Shown here: in pieces, positions 3,391 to 53,778 of the stretch | How the letters are laid out: the number at the start of each line of letters is the position of its first letter | Numbering within the stretch: position 1 is the first letter of the stretch | Assembly: GCA_964036195.1 (NCBI GenBank) | Contig: OZ038457.1 | Span: 5,490,635 to 5,554,634 of the forward strand | Source of the DNA: Sphaerolaimus hirsutus | Taxonomy: Eukaryota; Nematoda; Chromadorea; Monhysterida; Sphaerolaimidae | Length of the DNA: 64,000 nucleotides | Direction: 5' to 3' | Position numbers and translations under genes: made by a program | The notes under the pieces: model-generated | The model's input: the letters and a program-made list of their open reading frames with translations, nothing else | What the model was told of the DNA's origin: nothing | Databases searched by the model: none

Positions 3391-3619
3391 GTGGCGGCAG
3401 TCCCAAGCCCTGTAAAAAGTAAAGTAAAGTTTCAAATGTAAAATCAAATGCAAAGTAAAGTGTCAAATGTAAAGTCAAATGCAAAGTAAACTGTCAATTG
3501 TCATCCAAAGTTCAGTAAAAAAATCTTTTCGTTTTTTTTTTGATTGACACTCTACTTTGCATTTGACTTTACATTTGACACTTTACTTTACACTTTACAG
3601 GGCTTGGGACTGCCCCCTG
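3391..3619. mobile_element. Palindromic MITE, TGTAAA/GTCATG family (copy 1)
   Basis: Ends GGCGGCAGTCCCAAGCCCTG and CAGGGCTTGGGACTGCCCCC are inverted. The interior holds repeated tgtaaa, aagtgtcaaatg and their complements, so the whole copy can fold into one hairpin. The same family occurs at 3636, 25377, 32353, 34162, 39267, 40722, 43080 and 53115. Confidence 0.8.
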
Positions 3620-3635
3620 ATTTACTCTTGTGTCA

Positions 3636-3811
3636 CTTCCACACCCTGTAAAATGTCATGCAAGGCGTCAAAAGTCATGTAAAATGGCATGAAAAATGTC
3701 AAACTTCCAGTAAAATAAATAAAATAAAATAAAAGTTGCCATTTTACAAGGGATTTTACATGACATTTGACACTTTACATGACATTTCACATGTTTGGTA
3801 GTAGCCCCTGG
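3636..3811. mobile_element. Palindromic MITE, TGTAAA/GTCATG family (copy 2)
   Basis: It starts ccacaccctgtaaaatgtc and ends cacatgtttggtagtagcccc, with inverted inner motifs (gtcatgcaaggcgtcaaaag versus tgacatttgacac). Only about 17 bp separate it from copy 1, so the two lie nearly back to back. Confidence 0.7.
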
Positions 3812-23000: not shown

Positions 23001-26000
23001 TCCCGGCACCAGCGCAAAACCCCACCCCTCTCCAAACCCCACCCTCAAACGGAACCACACCCCCAAACAGAACCCCCTCTCCAACCCCCACCCTCAATCA
23101 TACCCCCCAATTCAGTGTCCCGAGCGGCAGTGACCCCGGCGCCCGGCGCGGACGCGGCTGGCGCTGCCGGCGGCACAGGGGCGCCAGCCGCCAAGAAAGA
23201 CGACGAGGCGGCGCAGATCGGATGGGTGACTGAGGCGAAAGATTGGGCGGGCGAGTTGATTTCTGGACAGACTTTTACTGGGCAGATTTTGGTTGGTCGA
23301 TGGGGGTTTTGGGGGGGGGGTTGAAGGGGGTTTTTGAGGGGGGGGGGGTGTATTTGTGTTGGGTGGAGTTTTGTTGCATAGATGGTGTAATGATGCACAC
23401 TACATTACATTTTTTCTCGTTGTCGGAAGTTATGTAGGTATTTTGTTCTATGCGGCTTCATTAATGAGTTTGCATGGAACAAACTCCTTCGACAACCCCC
23501 GACAACAAAAAAATGTGATTAAGAGTGCATGATAACATAATCCATGAAATTTAATGATTGTCCTAGGCAGTGAGGCTGATAAAAACATGATCGAACGATA
23601 TCTCACACATCAAATATTTTATTTTCATACCAAAAAATGTTAAAAACTCGCTGAAAATGGTTGAATTTTTTGCCATCACGTAAAAACGGTGTGAACGCGA
23701 TTTAAAAAGTATTTGTTTTGCCGCGCAGGTCGTGTTGGTGTTCGTGCTCAGTATCGGCTCTCTGGTCATTTACATTTATGATGCTTCTCAGTGAGTATAT
23801 TTATTATTTACATTTTTTTATTAACACCAGTGAAGGATGTATTCATGAAAGTTTGTATCGAGTATGGTGATTGAAAATTTTCTGGCGCTAGCGCCAAACA
23901 CAAAAAAACATATGGCGCTCGGCGCCATAATTATGAAAGCGCCATAATGCCAATTTCACGATAATACGGTGGACGCAACGACGATATTTGCAACCGTCGT
24001 TGCGTAGCTTTAGACTTCTCTGGACTTTTGATAACTTCCGATAAATTTTGATAAAACCTTAAATGTGCAGCTCTCGTTGGCAGCGTGCCAATGACAACTA
24101 TCGCACGCGACTGTCTGGAAATTGCTGCTTTCCAAACCTGTTACGTTTACGTTTCAACAACAACAAAGTTTCTCATTATTTTACGTAGAGGTGTTGTGCA
24201 TGTTGTTTTAGTTATCATTTGTTTTCGTTATCATTTGTTTTTGTTATCATTGGCACTCTGCCAACTTACACGACACCTCTAACCACGCGTTTAATAGTGT
24301 CAAGTCACTGGAGCATAGCTCTTTTCACAATGAAATCACAAAATGCATCATTTCATGACTACATCCCTCACTGATTTCACTTGTTCATTCTTGCACTACC
24401 TAGTCATGATCATTTGATCATTGAAATTTATCCCACTTTTGCAGTCCCCAGTTCCAAGTGGAAACGTGTAATTCCTGGTCGGAAAGCCCCTCCCAGCAGA
24501 TAGATTTGGCCTTCAACATTTTCTTTCTTATCTACTTTTTCATCAGGGTTGGTTAAAAAATTGTTTTTTTTTATTGTTTAAAGTTGTTTTTTTAATAATG
24601 TGAAATTAATCCATCGATAAAAGTCTTGCCCCCTTTCAGTTTATCGCCGCTAGCGACAAGGTGTGGTTTCTGATGGAGTTATACAGTTTTGTGGATTATT
24701 TCACTATTCCGCCGAGCTTCGTCGCTATTTATTTGGAGCGCAACTGGCTAGGTGAGTTATTTTTACTTCCAAATCCCGATGGATAATGTTTACCGGAATG
24801 AGTTTTTGTAATCTTTGTCAACTGTAGTTGACGGACAAATCATCCCGGTTCAATCACAAGTCATCTCCAGATGTATTATTAGTTTAACTGATTTTTACCA
24901 TCAAAATCGGCTGCTTCATAGAAAACGGTAAATCTTTAAATTTTGTTAGCTAACAAAACTTTTGAAACTTTTTTGTTTTTGAAAAAAAAGTTTTTTATCA
25001 TATAAAAACAAAATTTCATGGCTCAATAAGGAGCTCAATTGGCTCGATAAATCAATACTCTAATACAGAGTTTCTTTCCTATGTTCGCATAATCTTTGTC
25101 CTGTTAGCACACCCAATTGCAAAATTATCATGCACCTTCAAATTTTCTCGTAGGTTTGCGTTTTCTGCGCGCGCTGCGTCTGATGACAGTGCCGGACATT
25201 TTGCAGTATTTGAACGTGCTCAAAACCAGCCAGTCGATACGCCTTGCCCAGCTTGTGTCCAGTTTTATTGCTGTTTCATTGACTGCCGCCGGATTCATAC
25301 ATTTGGTTGGATGATTTTCTGGATGCTTTTTTTATTTTTATGGAAGCCTGTGTTTGGAACCTTGCCAAGTGATCGCCTCAGGGGCAGTCCCAAGTCCTGT
25401 AAAGTGTGACGTCAAGTGTCAAATGTCATTTAAAATGTCAATGAAAGCAAAAAAAAAATTATTACTGAAATTTGCATGACAATTGACACGTTGCCTCACA
25501 CTTTGCATGACAATTGACAAATTTGTATGACATTTGTCATGACATTTGACACTTGACATTACACTTTACAGTGCTCGGGACTGGCACCAGGCCTCATTTT
25601 ACAAATTTACCTAGATTGTTATCGTTCACAAACAAAAATCCCCCCTCCCCCAACTGCAGTTGGAAAACAGCGGCGACCCATTCAAAAACTTCGAAAATAC
25701 CCACCGCATAACCTATTGGGATTGCGTCTATTTTCTTCTTGTCACAATGTCCACCGTGGGCTATGGCGACATTTACTGCACCACCGATTTGGGAAGGCTT
25801 TTCATGGTGTTCTTCATACTTGGCGGTTTGGTATGTTTGGAATAAACTGTTGTTTTTTGAATTGTGAAATGTGATTTCTCCCAGATGGTGTAGGCGAAAA
25901 TGAAGTGGGCAAAAAGATATTGAGCAAAAATTGCGGTCATTTTTTTACAACATCTCAATAAGATACCTGGCCTATTGGGGGGGGGGGGATGTTCAGAGAA

Positions 26001-38000: not shown

Positions 38001-41000
38001 GACTAACGAAGGATAAGGGTGGGACCGCCTGGGGTCAGTCCAGCGGCGTGTCAAGTGTAATGTTTGACAGACTCAAAAAAATTTGTAAAATAATTTCTGG
38101 TAAAGGAAATGCAACACGTGATGACCAGTTAAGTTACAAGTTTCTGTTGCTCTTTCTACAAACATTCTACCGATATTTTGAAGCTTTGTCAGAAATTGTC
38201 ACTTGACACGGAACTTGACACGTCTTGAAAGTGGCCCCTGCGCAAACCGCAAACCGATAAAAAAACCAGGCTCCAAGTCGTACACACTCATTGGCATTGC
38301 GCCAGCCGAACAGCGCGGCATAGTGTCTCGGCCGTGCAGAAGCGGGTCGCACAACTCGCTGCCGCTGGCCGGCCGGGGCGGCGGCGCGGCCGCGGGCGAC
38401 CTGTCCAACTTGATGCTGGGCGACGGGTTGGCCACGGGCGGCGCCGAGCCCGGCCACAAGAGCCTCAACGGGACGCCGGCCGCGCTGCACGTGCAGCTGG
38501 CGGACGGGGCGGCCACGGCGGTGGCGCACAGCAATGGCAAGCCGTCGATGGACTACCGGGTCGCCTACGAGATACAGAAGCTCATGTGTGTTGCCGTCGC
38601 ACCCCAAGCCTCACTCGACTCGCCCGTGTGTGTATTCGTGCGTGTTGTAGCTTTTGTACTGCGTCTCGATTTACCACTGCACTTAGAATGCGAGTTTTTG
38701 ATTGCAGTGCCCTGTGTTTGCGTTTTTTTCCCTTTTATTGGACTGATGTGGGCTAGTTTTTTCTTCGATCGTGCATGCTGAGCGACGACTAAATGGCTCG
38801 GGTAATTTCCTGGATTCGGATATTCATCGGATGCGAATTCTTATTTATGTGTTTTAACTCGTTTTTTTTGTTAAAACAACTCGGAGATGGTACGATCCTG
38901 TTTATCTATTGCAGGGACCAAATTCTAAGCTTGTCATGTGGTAGTACCGCACCCTGTAATATGTCATGTCGATTAAAATAGAAAAGGAATGATCTAATTA
39001 CTGAACTTTGATGATTAGTCAAGAATCAAGGTGGAACTTGAAGGCAATCTGCAACTTTCCTTGATTCGTGGCACTTGACAAAGTGCGAAATCGTATCCTG
39101 CATTTGGCGCCTCGTCTCTTCATTCATAATTCTAATTACTTTTATCCAATGATAAGGACAGCCTGAAATCTGATGCGTTTGATTGTTACCCTGACTGTTA
39201 TTTCTGGGGTCAATTCCACAAGTGAACAAGTGACAAGAAAAGTGAGTGGTATTTAAGTGTAGATATGGTGGCAGTCCCAGTCCCCGTAAAAAGCCCTGTA
39301 AAATTTCAAATGTCATGCAAAGTGTTAAAAGTCAAGAACGTACGTTTCCCATTTTACATGGCGTTTTACATAACTTTTGACACTTTGCATGACATTTGAC
39401 ATTTGACAGGACACTTTACAGGGTCTGCGCTTGGCACATGGTGGTAAGTCACTGAAGTGGTGGTTGGTAGTGATGAGTCAGTTGACAAATGAATTCTTTT
39501 CACTTGAGGCTTGCAGAATTGGTCCCTGCTCTGCCTACCTATAATGCTTGCCGCATGCTGCCTTAACATCATCCTCCACAACCTCTCACCCCCCTCAAAT
39601 TTTTTTCACACGATTATTATATTTACGTAAAAATGTCTTTCCCTCAGCGGTATGTAGTTTCTCTCATATACTTTGGGCACCTTCCAACTATATTGTCTTA
39701 GAGTTTGAATCCACTTTCTTTATTGTACTTGCGCACCCGTCAGTTATTAAAAGATCTCTCGCTGTTTCTCACTTATTTAAATGATCAGTGCCAACTAGGG
39801 TGTCAACAAATTTTTTTTATGGAAAACGGAAACGGAAACGGAAATTTTTTTGCACTTGCCGGAAAACGGAACGGAAAACGGAAAAAAATTTGTCTGCGGA
39901 AAACGGAAAACGGAAAGAATTTTGCCTGCGGAAAAGCGGAAACGGAAAATTTTTTGCACTTGCCGGAAAACGGAAACGGAATTTTTTTTGCACTTGCCGG
40001 AAAACGGGAAAAAATCGCTTGCGGAAAGCGGAAGGGAAAACGGAAATTTGACACCCTAGTGCCAACGGTGCGGGATGTCGCTTTGGGGTATGTTTCCCAG
40101 TTTTATCACAAAGTGTTGATGATCGATAAAAAAAATTTAATAGGAATTTTGGAGTACAAATAGAAATGAAAAGAAATTTAAATTTGATTATCTTAACAAA
40201 GTGTTCTGCGGTGACCGTTTGAAAAATTGTTGTATACTGGGAAGCTTCCCACTCTTTTGTGTGAACTGATAACCCGCACAAGTAAATTATTGACGATGTA
40301 TGACGTTTCTGTCACGAAGCCACCAGCAATTTAAAACTCAGTGAAAAAGGGAGAACATTGCATTCTGGGGCAAACTTCAGGCACAGAAAAGTTGGCGCAC
40401 AATTTTAGCGCCAGCCTCGTGTCATCCACTCACTTCGAATTTGAATCCGAGTCGACCCACCCCAAATCGACATCCCCAATCGACGACACTGTACATATCG
40501 ACAAACACTGCTCACCCCACACCCCTCCCCTCTACACAACATTCACCTTCACACAGGCCTTCAACGGGGGGTCGAAAGGCGTCCTTTTCGATCCCGCCCG
40601 ACGGCACCAGGGGGGTCGATTTGGGCCGCGAGTTCGAGCCGGTCGAGATGAAGTACGATTCGACGGGCATGTTTCATTGGTGCCCGGCTAGGCCCATTGA
40701 GGAGTGCTTGTTGGTGGGTTGGGGGACCAGACCCTGTTAAATGCCATGTCAGATGTTTTGTATTTTTACTGATAGTTTGACATTTTTTCATGAGATTCTA
40801 CATGACATTTTTTCATGATATTCTACATGACTTTTGAACTTGGCATTACATTTGACACCTTCCAGCTTACAGATAATTTAGCACTTTACATGGTGTGGTA
40901 GTGGCCCCCGACTCAATTCGATTGCTAAAAACGTGATTCGTGCTGGAAGCGTACCATCAGTATTTAACGCATGCGATTTTCATAAAAGGACCAAAACTCC

Positions 41001-44000
41001 ATTGCTGTTACCATTTGTTGCTTCGCGTTTAAGTCTTCATTAAAAAAACCTTTTTCATATTTTCACAAAAAACGCATGCTTTTATCATCATTGGCACGCT
41101 TCCAAGGTGAGACATAAACAACTTCCCGTACACAGTGTTACGTCACTTTTGTCTCAGTATACCCTTCACCTTTGACCCAACCCCCCGCCCCAGGACCGGC
41201 ACCAAGCCGCCATGACGGTGCTCAACGGGCACGTGGTCGTGTGTCTCTTCGCCGACAAGGACAGCCCCTTGATCGGCCTGCGAAACTTCGTCATGCCCCT
41301 GCGCGCGTCCAATTTCCACTATCACGAGTTGAAGCATGTGGTTATTGTTGGCGACGTGGAGTATTTGAAGAATGAGTGGAAGACACTGTGTAATTTGCCC
41401 AAGATCTCCGTGTTGAATGTGAGCTTTTTTTGTTTGATTTTGGAGGGTTTTTTGTCGGGAGATAGAGATAAGGTATGTAAAGTTGTACAAGATTTATGTA
41501 CTTTTCACTTGATATATCACTATTTATTAACATTTAATATCTTTCATGTAACTTGTCCACTGCGGAATTGGACCAGCACCCAAAATGGTAAATATTTATA
41601 ATTATCCCAACACAACCAATCAGGGGCAAATTGCGAAACTTGTCGAATGAGAAAACTCAGATGTTATGTGACAAAATAACTTGAAAGCGAAACGTAAAGT
41701 GATCAACAAGTGTCTAAGTGAATGTCAAGTGACAAACTAACTTGTAAATAATGATGGCGAACAAAAATTCGAGAAATCGATAACATTTTATCCAGACGGT
41801 TTACTACTTTACTTCTAAGTGACGTGACCAGTAAATCCGACACGAAATTTCACTTATCACCCTCACTGTTCCTATCACTTATCAAAGCTCCAAAATTGGC
41901 CCAAATCCAAAAAAAACTTTCAAAACTCAGGGCTCACCCCTGTCCCGAGCGGACCTGCGCGCGGTCAACATCAACCTGTGCGACATGTGCGTGATCGTGT
42001 CGGCGCGCGTGCCCAACCAGAACGAGGACACCACCCTGGCGGATAAGGAGGCCATCCTGGCGTCGCTGAACATCAAGGCGATGCACTTTGATGATACTTT
42101 GGGCTTTTATCCTGCGGGCACTTCGGGTGGGTTTTTAAACTGGTATTTTGATGGTGTTATGTACTTTTTTAATATAGGTTTTTCAATAAATATTTGGGAC
42201 AATGACAGAGCCTGTAAAATGTTATGCAAAGTAGCAACATGGCATGCAAAATAGTAAAACATACGAATTGATTATGATACCAGAGTAAATATTGTCCCCA
42301 CACACATTCAATCGTCAACCTAAATTTCGAAAACTCACGAATCTGCTTTGAACACATTTGAGATATAAAAAACCAACCCGGCCAACGATTCAAAAATGCA
42401 TTCGAAAATCATCCGCTATATACTATGGTTCGCAGCGCTTTCGCCCACGTCGATGGTGGGGTCTCCGTTGGGGCCCGACGGCAACCTGTCGCTCGGCGGC
42501 ATCAACGCTGTCGGGAGAATCAAGGGTTCGGTTTTTAAATATTAGTTCTCGGGTTTAAATTAATTGTGAAGTGACGAATGGTAACGATGGTAAATAAATA
42601 CGCTGTAAAAAGTGTTTAAATTTTCAAGTGTTTTTTTCTATAATCACTATTCGAATTTCGTATTATTTCCAAAAACAGTTTTCAAAAATTTCGAATTTGA
42701 ATTGAATTTAAATTTTTTCCCATCATTAATGGGGCAAGTTCCACCCATTTTCAAACACGTATTAAGTACCAAACCCGCAAGTGGACAAAAATCACGTCAA
42801 CAAGGTAGTACACCTAAGTGAGAAAAATCACAAGTCCACTTAATTGACTCTTTATAGGTATACTGACTAATTACTGCCTCAACCTAAAACCAAACTCAAC
42901 CTCACCCTCGATCAATCCCCCCAGGCGCCCGTTTCGGCACCAACGTGCCCATGATCACCGAACTGGCGCAAGACAGCAACGTGCAATTTCTCGACCAAGA
43001 TGATGACGATGACCCGGACACGGAATTGTACCTGACGCAGCCGTTCGCCTGCGGCACCGCCTTCGCGATATCAGTGCTGGTGCCAGCTCCCAGACCCTGT
43101 AAAGTGTCCTGGAAAGTGTCAAATGTCATGCAAAGTGTCAAAAGTCATGGAAAGTGCCCTGGAAAATGGCAAACGTACGTTTGCCATTTTTCAGGACATT
43201 TTACATGACTTTTGACACTTTGCATGACATTAGAAACTTTCCAGGGTACTTTACAGGCTCTGGGAGTGGCCCCCAGGACTCGCTCATGTCCACGACCTAC
43301 TTTAATAATTCCGCCTTGACCCTGATTAGGACGTTAGTCACTGGAGGGGCCACACCTGAATTAGAGCTCATTTTAGCTGAGGGGGCGGGTTTGAGGGGCG
43401 GTTACAGCACGCCGGACACGCTCAGGGCCAGGGACAGGTGCCGCATTGCCCAGATTCCATTGCAGGATGGACCGTTTCTGGGGATTAGGGTGGGTTTGGG
43501 GGGTTTGATATTTTAGTGTGAAGTTTTTAAAAGAGTGGAAAGTAAATATTAGAATATCTTTTTATATTGTTTTTATTTTTTCCGTCCAAAATAGCATTAA
43601 AACTTTCAAAAAATGAATAATCGAATTAATTGGAAAAAATTAAAAAAATTCAACCACTGGACGAAATGAATTTGATAGAACAATTGAGAAACAATTTAAC
43701 CATCCAAAACCACAACAATCAAATCAAACACAAAACTCAACCTCCACCCCCCCAGTCGGGCTCAACCTACGGCGAGATGTTCACCGAGGCCCTATCCAAG
43801 CACGGGCTGCTGTGCATCGGCCTGTACCGGTTACACGACCAAGTGCCCCCCGAGACCAACAAGCGATACGTCATCACCAACCCGCCCAGCGAGTTGAGAT
43901 TACTTACTAGCGATTATGTGGGTTGGGGGTGCGATGGGGTTTTTAGTTTTTGTTTTCAAATGATGTTTTTTTAAAGTGAGGTTTAGAACTGTTTTTTTAA

Positions 44001-52735: not shown

Positions 52736-53778
52736 CAGGGTTGGTTTTATAAAAATTCATTTTAGTAAAATTGTATAAAAATTTTATTTTATTTAAATTT
52801 TATTCTTGTTTCATTTTATTTTATTTTATTTTATTTTATTCCCAAAAGTCATTAATAAAATAAAATGACTCATTTTACAAAAATTTTACAAAAATTGTAC
52901 AAAAATTTTACAAAAAATCAGAAACATGCATGCAAGGCCAGAAAAATGTTATAATTAGACCTTACATGAAAAACCTGTGACAAATTTTTCCCTTACTTTT
53001 CAAAAGTTGCATGCAATATGTATTGTTAGCTAGCTGCAAGTGTAAAGTTACAATTATTGATAAGAATGGTTTGCATTTTCAGAGGAAGGACTACTGGAGT
53101 GTGCTGGGCACATTTGTAAAATGTCATGCAAAGTGTCAATTGTCATGACAAATGTAAAGTAAAGTATCAATTGTCATGCAAAATGTCAAGTGTCATGTAA
53201 AATTTCAAGCAAAGTGGCAATTGTCATGACAAATGTCATGCAAAGTGTAAATTGTGTATCCAAATCTTGTGTTTTTGTATCCATAGTATGTTTTATATCC
53301 AATCTTATGTTTTTGTATCCAAATGTTCACATAAAGTTTTGGAGTTAACAACAACATAATTTGGATACAAAACATAAGATTTTGAAATAAAACATGAGAT
53401 TTGAACACAATTTAATTGTTACATGTCATGACAATTTACACTGTACTTTACATTTGTCATAACAATTGACACTTTGCATGACATTTTACATGACATTTGA
53501 CACTTTACAATGCTTGGGACACCCCCCAGATCCATGAATAAATAGGTAGAGACTCGAGCAATGAGACAAAATTTTACAAAAAATATGAATTTTTATACAA
53601 TTTTACAAAAATATCAATTTTTATACAATTTTACAAAAAATTTACAAAAATTCGAATTTTTATACAATTTTTATTTTTATTCTTAAATTTTCCATTTTAT
53701 TTTATTTTATTTTATTCTTGAATATTCCATTTTATTTTTATTTTATTTTTATTTTTTTCTGAGATTTTGCCAACTCTG
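52736..53778. mobile_element. hAT MITE filled with TAAAATAAAAT repeats, perfect 8-bp duplication
   Basis: Begins CAGGGTTGGTTTTATAAAAA and ends GAGATTTTGCCAACTCTG. Flanks gtcatgag at 52728-52735 and 53779-53786 are identical. Both sides are (TTTTA)n/(TACAAAAATT)n reiterations. The middle (about 53115-53528) is a TGTAAA/GTCATG palindrome, i.e. a nested insertion. Confidence 0.9.
53115..53528. mobile_element. TGTAAA/GTCATG family copy nested in a hAT MITE
   Basis: Repeats of aagtgtcaattgtcatgac and their complement run from about 53120 to 53510 and it ends gcttgggacaccccccag. The interior also contains catccaaatcttatg-type repeats (tgtatccaa, acataag) at 53250-53400. Longer than other copies (about 410 bp). 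Confidence 0.65.

Follow-up and report, generated by a model that had tools for sequence, protein, structure and literature searches.

The question raised by this locus is how the slo gene acquired an intron whose whole length is taken up by one hairpin-forming repeat. The window, i.e. the whole stretch of 64,000 nucleotides that was analysed, was described in an earlier note, which took positions 43080-43276 for a 197-bp GT...AG hairpin belonging to a dispersed family and for an intron made by a DNA transposon. The origin of new introns is an old question. Judged from the DNA presented below, the slo intron is very probably an introner, that is, a non-autonomous palindromic DNA transposon which would have inserted in an exonic CTG (Leu) codon and then become a spliceosomal intron.

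The slo intron and its relatives in the window

The 197-bp intron (43080-43276) starts with GTGCCAGCTCCC and ends with GGCCCCCAG. Together with its borders it reads ...ATATCAGTGCTG|GTGCCAGCTCCCAGA...TCTGGGAGTGGCCCCCAG|GACTCGCTC..., with GT first and AG last, and it is located between the codons for ISVL and DSLM. The RNA fold calculated for positions 43060-43296 was one long hairpin of -153.7 kcal/mol, while the mean of 200 shuffled sequences was -62.8 (z = -19), thus the hairpin is far beyond chance and the sequence and the fold both bear out the earlier description of this segment. When the 197 bp were excised, residues 3-117 of the joined 118-aa slo peptide could be aligned without gaps to residues 960-1074 of Drosophila Slowpoke (E 7.3e-61). 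When they were retained, the slo frame was shifted (197 = 2 mod 3), and reading on from the upstream exon met a stop codon within the element (ORF 42888-43208). The features of the locus are collected in Table 1.

Table 1. Positions of the slo intron, its target copies, the neighbouring exons and the related sequences in the window
Feature	Position	Strand	Remarks and basis
slo intron	43080..43276	+	one family copy plus the right target copy; GT first, CAG last
Left target copy, CTG	43077..43079	+	conserved Leu codon closing the upstream exon; sequence
Right target copy, CAG	43274..43276	+	contains the acceptor AG; presumed former CTG; CWG duplication of the family
5' inverted end, GTGCCAGCTCCCAGA	43080..43094	+	contains the donor GT
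3' inverted end, TCTGGGAGTGGCCCC	43259..43273	+	sequence, window BLAST
Upstream slo exon	42925..43079	+	ends ...FAISVL; start from acceptor-like AG and frame only
Downstream slo exon	43277..43489	+	starts DSLMSTTYF...; end from next in-frame GT only
Diverged family relative	39268..39435	+	about 73-75% identity; no intron sign
Diverged family relative	25381..25588	-	CTG-like target copies at its ends
Two adjacent diverged family relatives	3394..3791		BLAST, flanks
Diverged larger palindromic family relative	53115..53509		BLAST, flanks

The leucine closing the upstream exon is common to Drosophila Slowpoke and another BK channel, the two best alignments. A left copy which is CTG for a conserved Leu and a right copy which is CAG suggest that the target was originally CTG, and that the copy at the acceptor became CAG by a T-to-A change. 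The earlier note had placed both splice sites within the ends of the element. This is correct for the donor, but the acceptor dinucleotide is part of the 3-bp CWG target duplication. A further correction concerns the left limit: the palindrome begins at CTG, the last codon of the exon, and this triplet is target duplication and lies outside the intron. Two further AGs, in an ACAG 20 nt and in a GGGAG 10 nt upstream of the end of the intron, would have to be skipped by splicing, which counts against the introner reading of slo.

Elsewhere in the window related sequence was found by BLAST at about seven places, with 70-95% identity over 22-193 bp. The other copies claimed before, at least seven, are thus present as related sequence, but they are partial or diverged, and their flanks, inspected by eye, are unlike exon junctions. 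The window also contains, at 314-2040, a tandem-like sequence with long open frames on both strands and repeated peptides of the GVPRGCHFWG type, which is probably a satellite.

A dispersed family with a CWG target duplication

In the first search of the genome 40 of the 2,843 candidates were scored and 80 matches were reported; those other than the slo copy had 85-92% identity to it. A strict two-ended pattern detected 822 full-length copies, while the reversed control pattern detected none, and with eight patterns, differing solely in the target triplets and the following base, the number of intact copies found in the 348-Mb genome came to at least 1,318. With at least 80 matches reported and at least 1,318 intact copies found by pattern, the slo intron does belong to a dispersed family. 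The latter figure counts copies with intact ends, duplicated loci included, and not introns. The slo copy itself was counted neither among the 822 nor among the 1,318, since small insertions in both of its ends let it escape the strict patterns.

Of the 822 copies 100 were listed, and the first 90 of these served as a sample; 82 non-redundant copies were left after removal of eight near-duplicates. Twenty loci (L009-L028) were read at their ends alone and enter no count; beyond 118 loci, the statements made here rest on pattern counts and protein matches. The consensus of the 82 copies has a near-palindromic body of approx. 189 nt, which starts with GTGCCAGTCCCAGACCCTGTAAA and ends with TTTACAGGGTCTGGGACTGCCCC. 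The ends of the family element are GGGGCAGTCCC, with the CWG duplication; GTGCC is found at the 5' end and, in reverse complement, GGGGC at the 3' end, and the consensus has an ACAG 19 nt upstream of its end. Matched letters beginning with CTGGTGCCAATCCCAAGCCCTGTAAAGTGTAAAGTAAAG, seen in the CTG...CTG and the CTG...CAG listings, represent another subfamily, which is very uniform and shares these ends.

The left triplet was CAG or CTG in 85 of the 90 sampled copies, the pattern having imposed only its last G, and it was some other triplet in five. Both sides carried the same W in 73 of the 85 (44 CAG/CAG and 29 CTG/CTG), and the discordant combinations occurred 8 and 4 times. A duplicated CWG target and palindromic inverted ends, both marks of DNA transposition, are therefore found together in this family. 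When the joined flanks of the 90 copies were compared with all of the fetched loci, no true empty site was found. Apparent empty sites of L042, L071 and L116 were rejected, as each of them lay in the copy's own locus, where an end of the element resembles the flank.

Copies in coding exons and a possible choice between AG and TG

The proposed mechanism is the following. The palindromic element would insert at a CWG in a coding exon and duplicate the 3-bp target; its 5' end would then serve as the donor, while the duplicated CWG would give the 3' splice site, and selection would retain those sense insertions which splice. At slo the change of the acceptor copy from CTG to CAG would have yielded an ordinary GT-AG intron.

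The plain length of ORFs across the junctions was a weak test, since the GC-rich flanks hold long chance ORFs, and it was replaced by a codon model with shift controls. A codon-use score was calculated on each side of the junction in the 82 non-redundant copies, exact excision meaning the removal of the element and one CWG. The sampled copies themselves were used to train the model, which was seeded with sense-strand genes recognised by eye, and the controls share it. Upon exact excision 36 of the 82 copies had both flanks scored as coding in a single sense frame, versus 11 and 10 copies when the join was moved by 1 or 2 nt. In the antisense direction the corresponding values were 14 for the exact join versus 9 and 10 for the shifted ones. 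Short and untranslated exons escape this test, so that the excess, about 25 coding copies, is probably an underestimate. Thus a substantial share of the sampled copies lies in exons in the GT-forward direction, and the exact removal of the element with one CWG restores the reading frame. In case of the CAG/CAG copies 17 of 40 were coding with the exact join (7 and 6 with the shifted joins), while the values were 5 of 8 (0 and 3) for CTG/CAG and 1 of 4 (0 and 0) for CAG/CTG. The CTG/CTG copies, 12 of 25 versus 4 and 0, have, at the level of the DNA, an in-frame coding join at a TG end.

When the two flanks were called separately, strand and phase agreed in 20 of the 28 copies above threshold in the final model (20 of 27 in the first run of the codon test), and 19 of these 20 were sense; the fraction 20/28 was attained by none of 2,000 shuffled pairings. 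At a stricter threshold the agreement was 13 of 17, matched by 3 of 2,000 shuffled pairings. Since 93-97% of the agreeing shuffled pairings were sense too, the sense bias is a property of the single flanks and adds no second proof for the junction.

Protein domains were searched with Pfam in 28 usable peptides, which represent 26 copies and the two halves of one of them. In 7 of the 26 copies the junction is spanned by a match that reaches or exceeds the curated cut-off. Among the CTG/CTG copies these are an arginyl-tRNA synthetase (L054, C1:8233086-8233277, 7.6e-27), an elongation-factor domain in a Snu114-like protein (L088, C1:20014882-20015063, 4.9e-11), OSCP1 (L035, 4.4e-17) and an E1 dehydrogenase (L056, C1:8335220-8335412, 4.4e-5, barely above the cut-off); among the CAG/CAG copies they are OSCP1 again (L036, 3.4e-19), a PRPF8-type PROCN domain (L095, 4.3e-67) and a COMM domain (L083, 1.3e-4, just at the cut-off). 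The domain ends at the junction in an S9 peptidase (L042) and in a FAT4-type cadherin (L049), and in L064 a calpain protease domain precedes the junction and domain III follows it. Most of the other scanned copies gave no match, a match below threshold or a one-sided one; in the first batch 6 of 10 had no match. Taken singly, both halves of the arginyl-tRNA synthetase peptide match the profile, in segments that follow directly on each other (179-219 and 220-277), and the joined peptide aligns without gaps to the cytoplasmic arginine-tRNA ligase (E 1e-31). When this piece was compared with the genome, only the two halves beside the element matched (E up to 0.001). The joined Snu114-like peptide aligns in the same gapless manner to the U5 116-kDa protein (E 2e-37).

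The earlier proposal of a transposon-made intron is hence supported genome-wide by sense copies in coding exons, by exact excision which restores the frame and by Pfam domains spanning the junctions, and these observations suggest that an intron was gained in the same way at slo itself. Similar introns which reach both splice boundaries appear in unrelated genes (36 of 82 copies; several genes), and the marks of DNA transposition described above accompany them; in these parts the family agrees with the definition of introners.

When the target is CAG, its duplicated copy supplies the AG, while a CTG target leaves the exact end without an AG. Of the 1,318 copies, 468 have a CTG end, some of them inside conserved genes, such as the arginyl-tRNA synthetase. 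We give an even chance to the reading that the target decides the splice rule: CAG would lead to GT-AG introns and CTG to GT-TG introns with TG|G as the working site, which would drift to AG, and slo would be a case of completed drift. We likewise put at about one half the chance that splicing of the copies which still have a CTG end takes place at TG before a G.

The base following the copies bears on this point. It is G in 361 of the 468 copies after CTG (77%) versus 431 of the 850 after CAG (51%), and this excess suggests splicing at TG|G. With CTG as the right copy, G follows 307 of the 395 CTG...CTG copies (88 without) and 54 of the 73 CAG...CTG copies (19 without; p = 0.54). With CAG on the right, G follows 121 of the 209 CTG...CAG copies (88 without) and 310 of the 641 CAG...CAG copies (331 without), which is a weak effect of the left copy (p = 0.017). 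The right copy affects the next base for either left copy (p = 5e-7 and 4e-5), and the effect persisted after removal of eight CAG...CTG rows clustered on C9 (p = 6e-4). The discordant copies are unequal as well, 209 CTG...CAG versus 73 CAG...CTG (p = 2e-16, some duplicated loci included), as expected if AG were favoured at the acceptor, i.e. with a drift towards AG.

The strongest alternative, to which we give a little less than an even chance, is that the CTG-ended copies use other nearby in-frame GT-AG pairs or are poorly tolerated, and that the G after CTG reflects a cutting preference of the transposase. An in-frame, stop-free GT-AG alternative was indeed present within the scanned range in 9 of the 13 coding-like CTG-ended copies, at +9 nt in case of the arginyl-tRNA synthetase copy; however, 4 of the 13 had none, and the alternatives found alter the conserved stretch. 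A cutting preference is favoured by the copies scoring as non-coding, in which G after CTG is equally common (10 of 11, versus 9 of 18 after CAG), and it would explain this excess unless the exons concerned are untranslated. A pure cutting preference, however, predicts equal sides, while in fact the right copy matters and the left one barely does. The coding-like CTG/CTG copies are not younger than the CAG/CAG ones: the mean divergence is 0.078 (14 copies) versus 0.088 (21 copies), in sets picked by eye. In human U2 introns, TG 3' splice sites lie no more than 28 nt away from an AG (Szafranski et al. 2007, PMC2374985), and the ACAG near the end of the family consensus is similar in this respect. 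In the part of that paper on which we draw, the human TG is an alternative site only and never the sole one, which argues against the use of TG here, where it is proposed as a working site. The idea that the CTG copies lie antisense to genes with an inner GTAAAA donor was dropped, because the coding-like CTG/CTG copies read sense.

If the target does decide the splice rule, many copies, some of them in core genes such as the arginyl-tRNA synthetase, would break the AG rule and drift singly towards AG. One family whose ends are intact and whose target copies can be read would show several stages of intron creation, from insertions at CAG through insertions at CTG, which lack a normal acceptor, to CTG insertions which have gained an AG, as in slo. 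Such a family allows a direct test of two points, the sufficiency of insertion alone for a working intron and the ability of an animal spliceosome to take TG as its working acceptor.

Source of the element and duplicated loci

The remaining alternatives concern the slo intron and its family. It is improbable that the intron position in slo is old and that its content was replaced when the repeat inserted later and the earlier sequence to either side of it was lost. It is true that slo is an intron-rich conserved gene and that relatives of the repeat also occur in non-exonic DNA of the window. The slo intron, however, equals the element and one target copy to the base, the exact fit and the frame are found elsewhere too, and the replacement would have to remove the previous intron precisely on both sides, gene after gene. 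Precise excision of the DNA, e.g. in somatic cells, with no part for splicing, is highly improbable: exact removal together with one target copy would be expected and an AG would be unnecessary, but it gives no reason for the sense direction (36 copies, with the antisense 14 near the controls of 9 and 10) or for the change of the acceptor copy towards CAG. Spread through RNA, in which excised introns are reverse-spliced, has been proposed for fungal introners; here it has just as little to recommend it. It would also yield sense-only copies with intact ends, but the CWG duplication and the long inverted ends mark DNA transposition, and the relatives in the window lie outside exons and on the opposite strand as well.

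With insertion of a DNA transposon as the preferred origin, the element most likely derives from the PHIS superfamily, from a transposon of the NuwaI type. The comparisons made here refer to parts of the cited papers. The CWG target duplication is shared with NuwaI/PHIS (PMC4482050). NuwaI ends usually start with GGG; in the slo-intron family the 3' inverted end does so and the 5' end has GT instead of GG, and this GT may have arisen from GG. The definition of NuwaI is based on autonomous elements, which have a DDE transposase and a Myb/SANT protein, and the group is found in animals, one crustacean among them (PMC4482050), whereas the slo-intron family is known from short copies only.

In the part of a survey of DNA-transposon introners that we cite, such introns are given for only two animal groups, and a donor from the element with an acceptor from the target duplication is one of the types described (Gozashti et al. 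2022, PMC9860276). In introners of the Chrysochromulina type (PMC9860276), as in the present family, there are many similar introns per genome, the donor lies in the element and the acceptor comes from the duplication, and insertion is in the sense direction in coding exons with the length of the mRNA unchanged. According to the portion cited, they have 4-bp duplications and no inverted ends, in contrast with the 3-bp CWG and the wholly palindromic element found here. GT-TG introners are known as IE-B and IE-D of Micromonas (PMC3879977), with 25 and 6 members there; Micromonas is a green alga, while the slo-intron family by itself has both kinds of end, TG and AG, depending on the target base, and the use of TG is putative. 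The introner elements of Amoebophrya (PMC7789003) are similar in being hairpin introns with inverted repeats and with direct repeats of 3-5 nt at the exon borders, but this organism is a dinoflagellate whose splice sites are highly varied, with no single family rule in the part of the paper used. Among the openly available papers listed, no title or beginning of an abstract described the slo-intron family or an animal TG-ended introner family. What appears to be new here is the palindromic element, the CWG duplication and a target base that would set the AG or TG end. A paper of 2025 reportedly describes the horizontal transfer of introners.

Some of the loci are duplicated. Within approx. 20 kb (C1:22.17-22.19 Mb) there are three near copies of the PRPF8-type exon pair (L093, L094 and L095), each with the same copy of the family, 97% and about 91-94% alike; L093 is without some 70 nt of the upstream exon immediately before the donor. 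These represent either a tandem duplication or haplotypes in the assembly. PRPF8 acts in the choice of the 3' splice site. The Snu114-like spliceosome gene may be partly duplicated as well: its piece gave further one-half matches in the genome on C1 (20014783-20026823) and C13 (19278933-19279103), plus three weak ones, and because of these half matches the genome may contain another working copy of the gene. Finally, one OSCP1-like gene carries two copies of the family less than 1 kb apart, a CTG one at C1:3591983-3592163 (L035) and a CAG one at C1:3592806-3592998 (L036).
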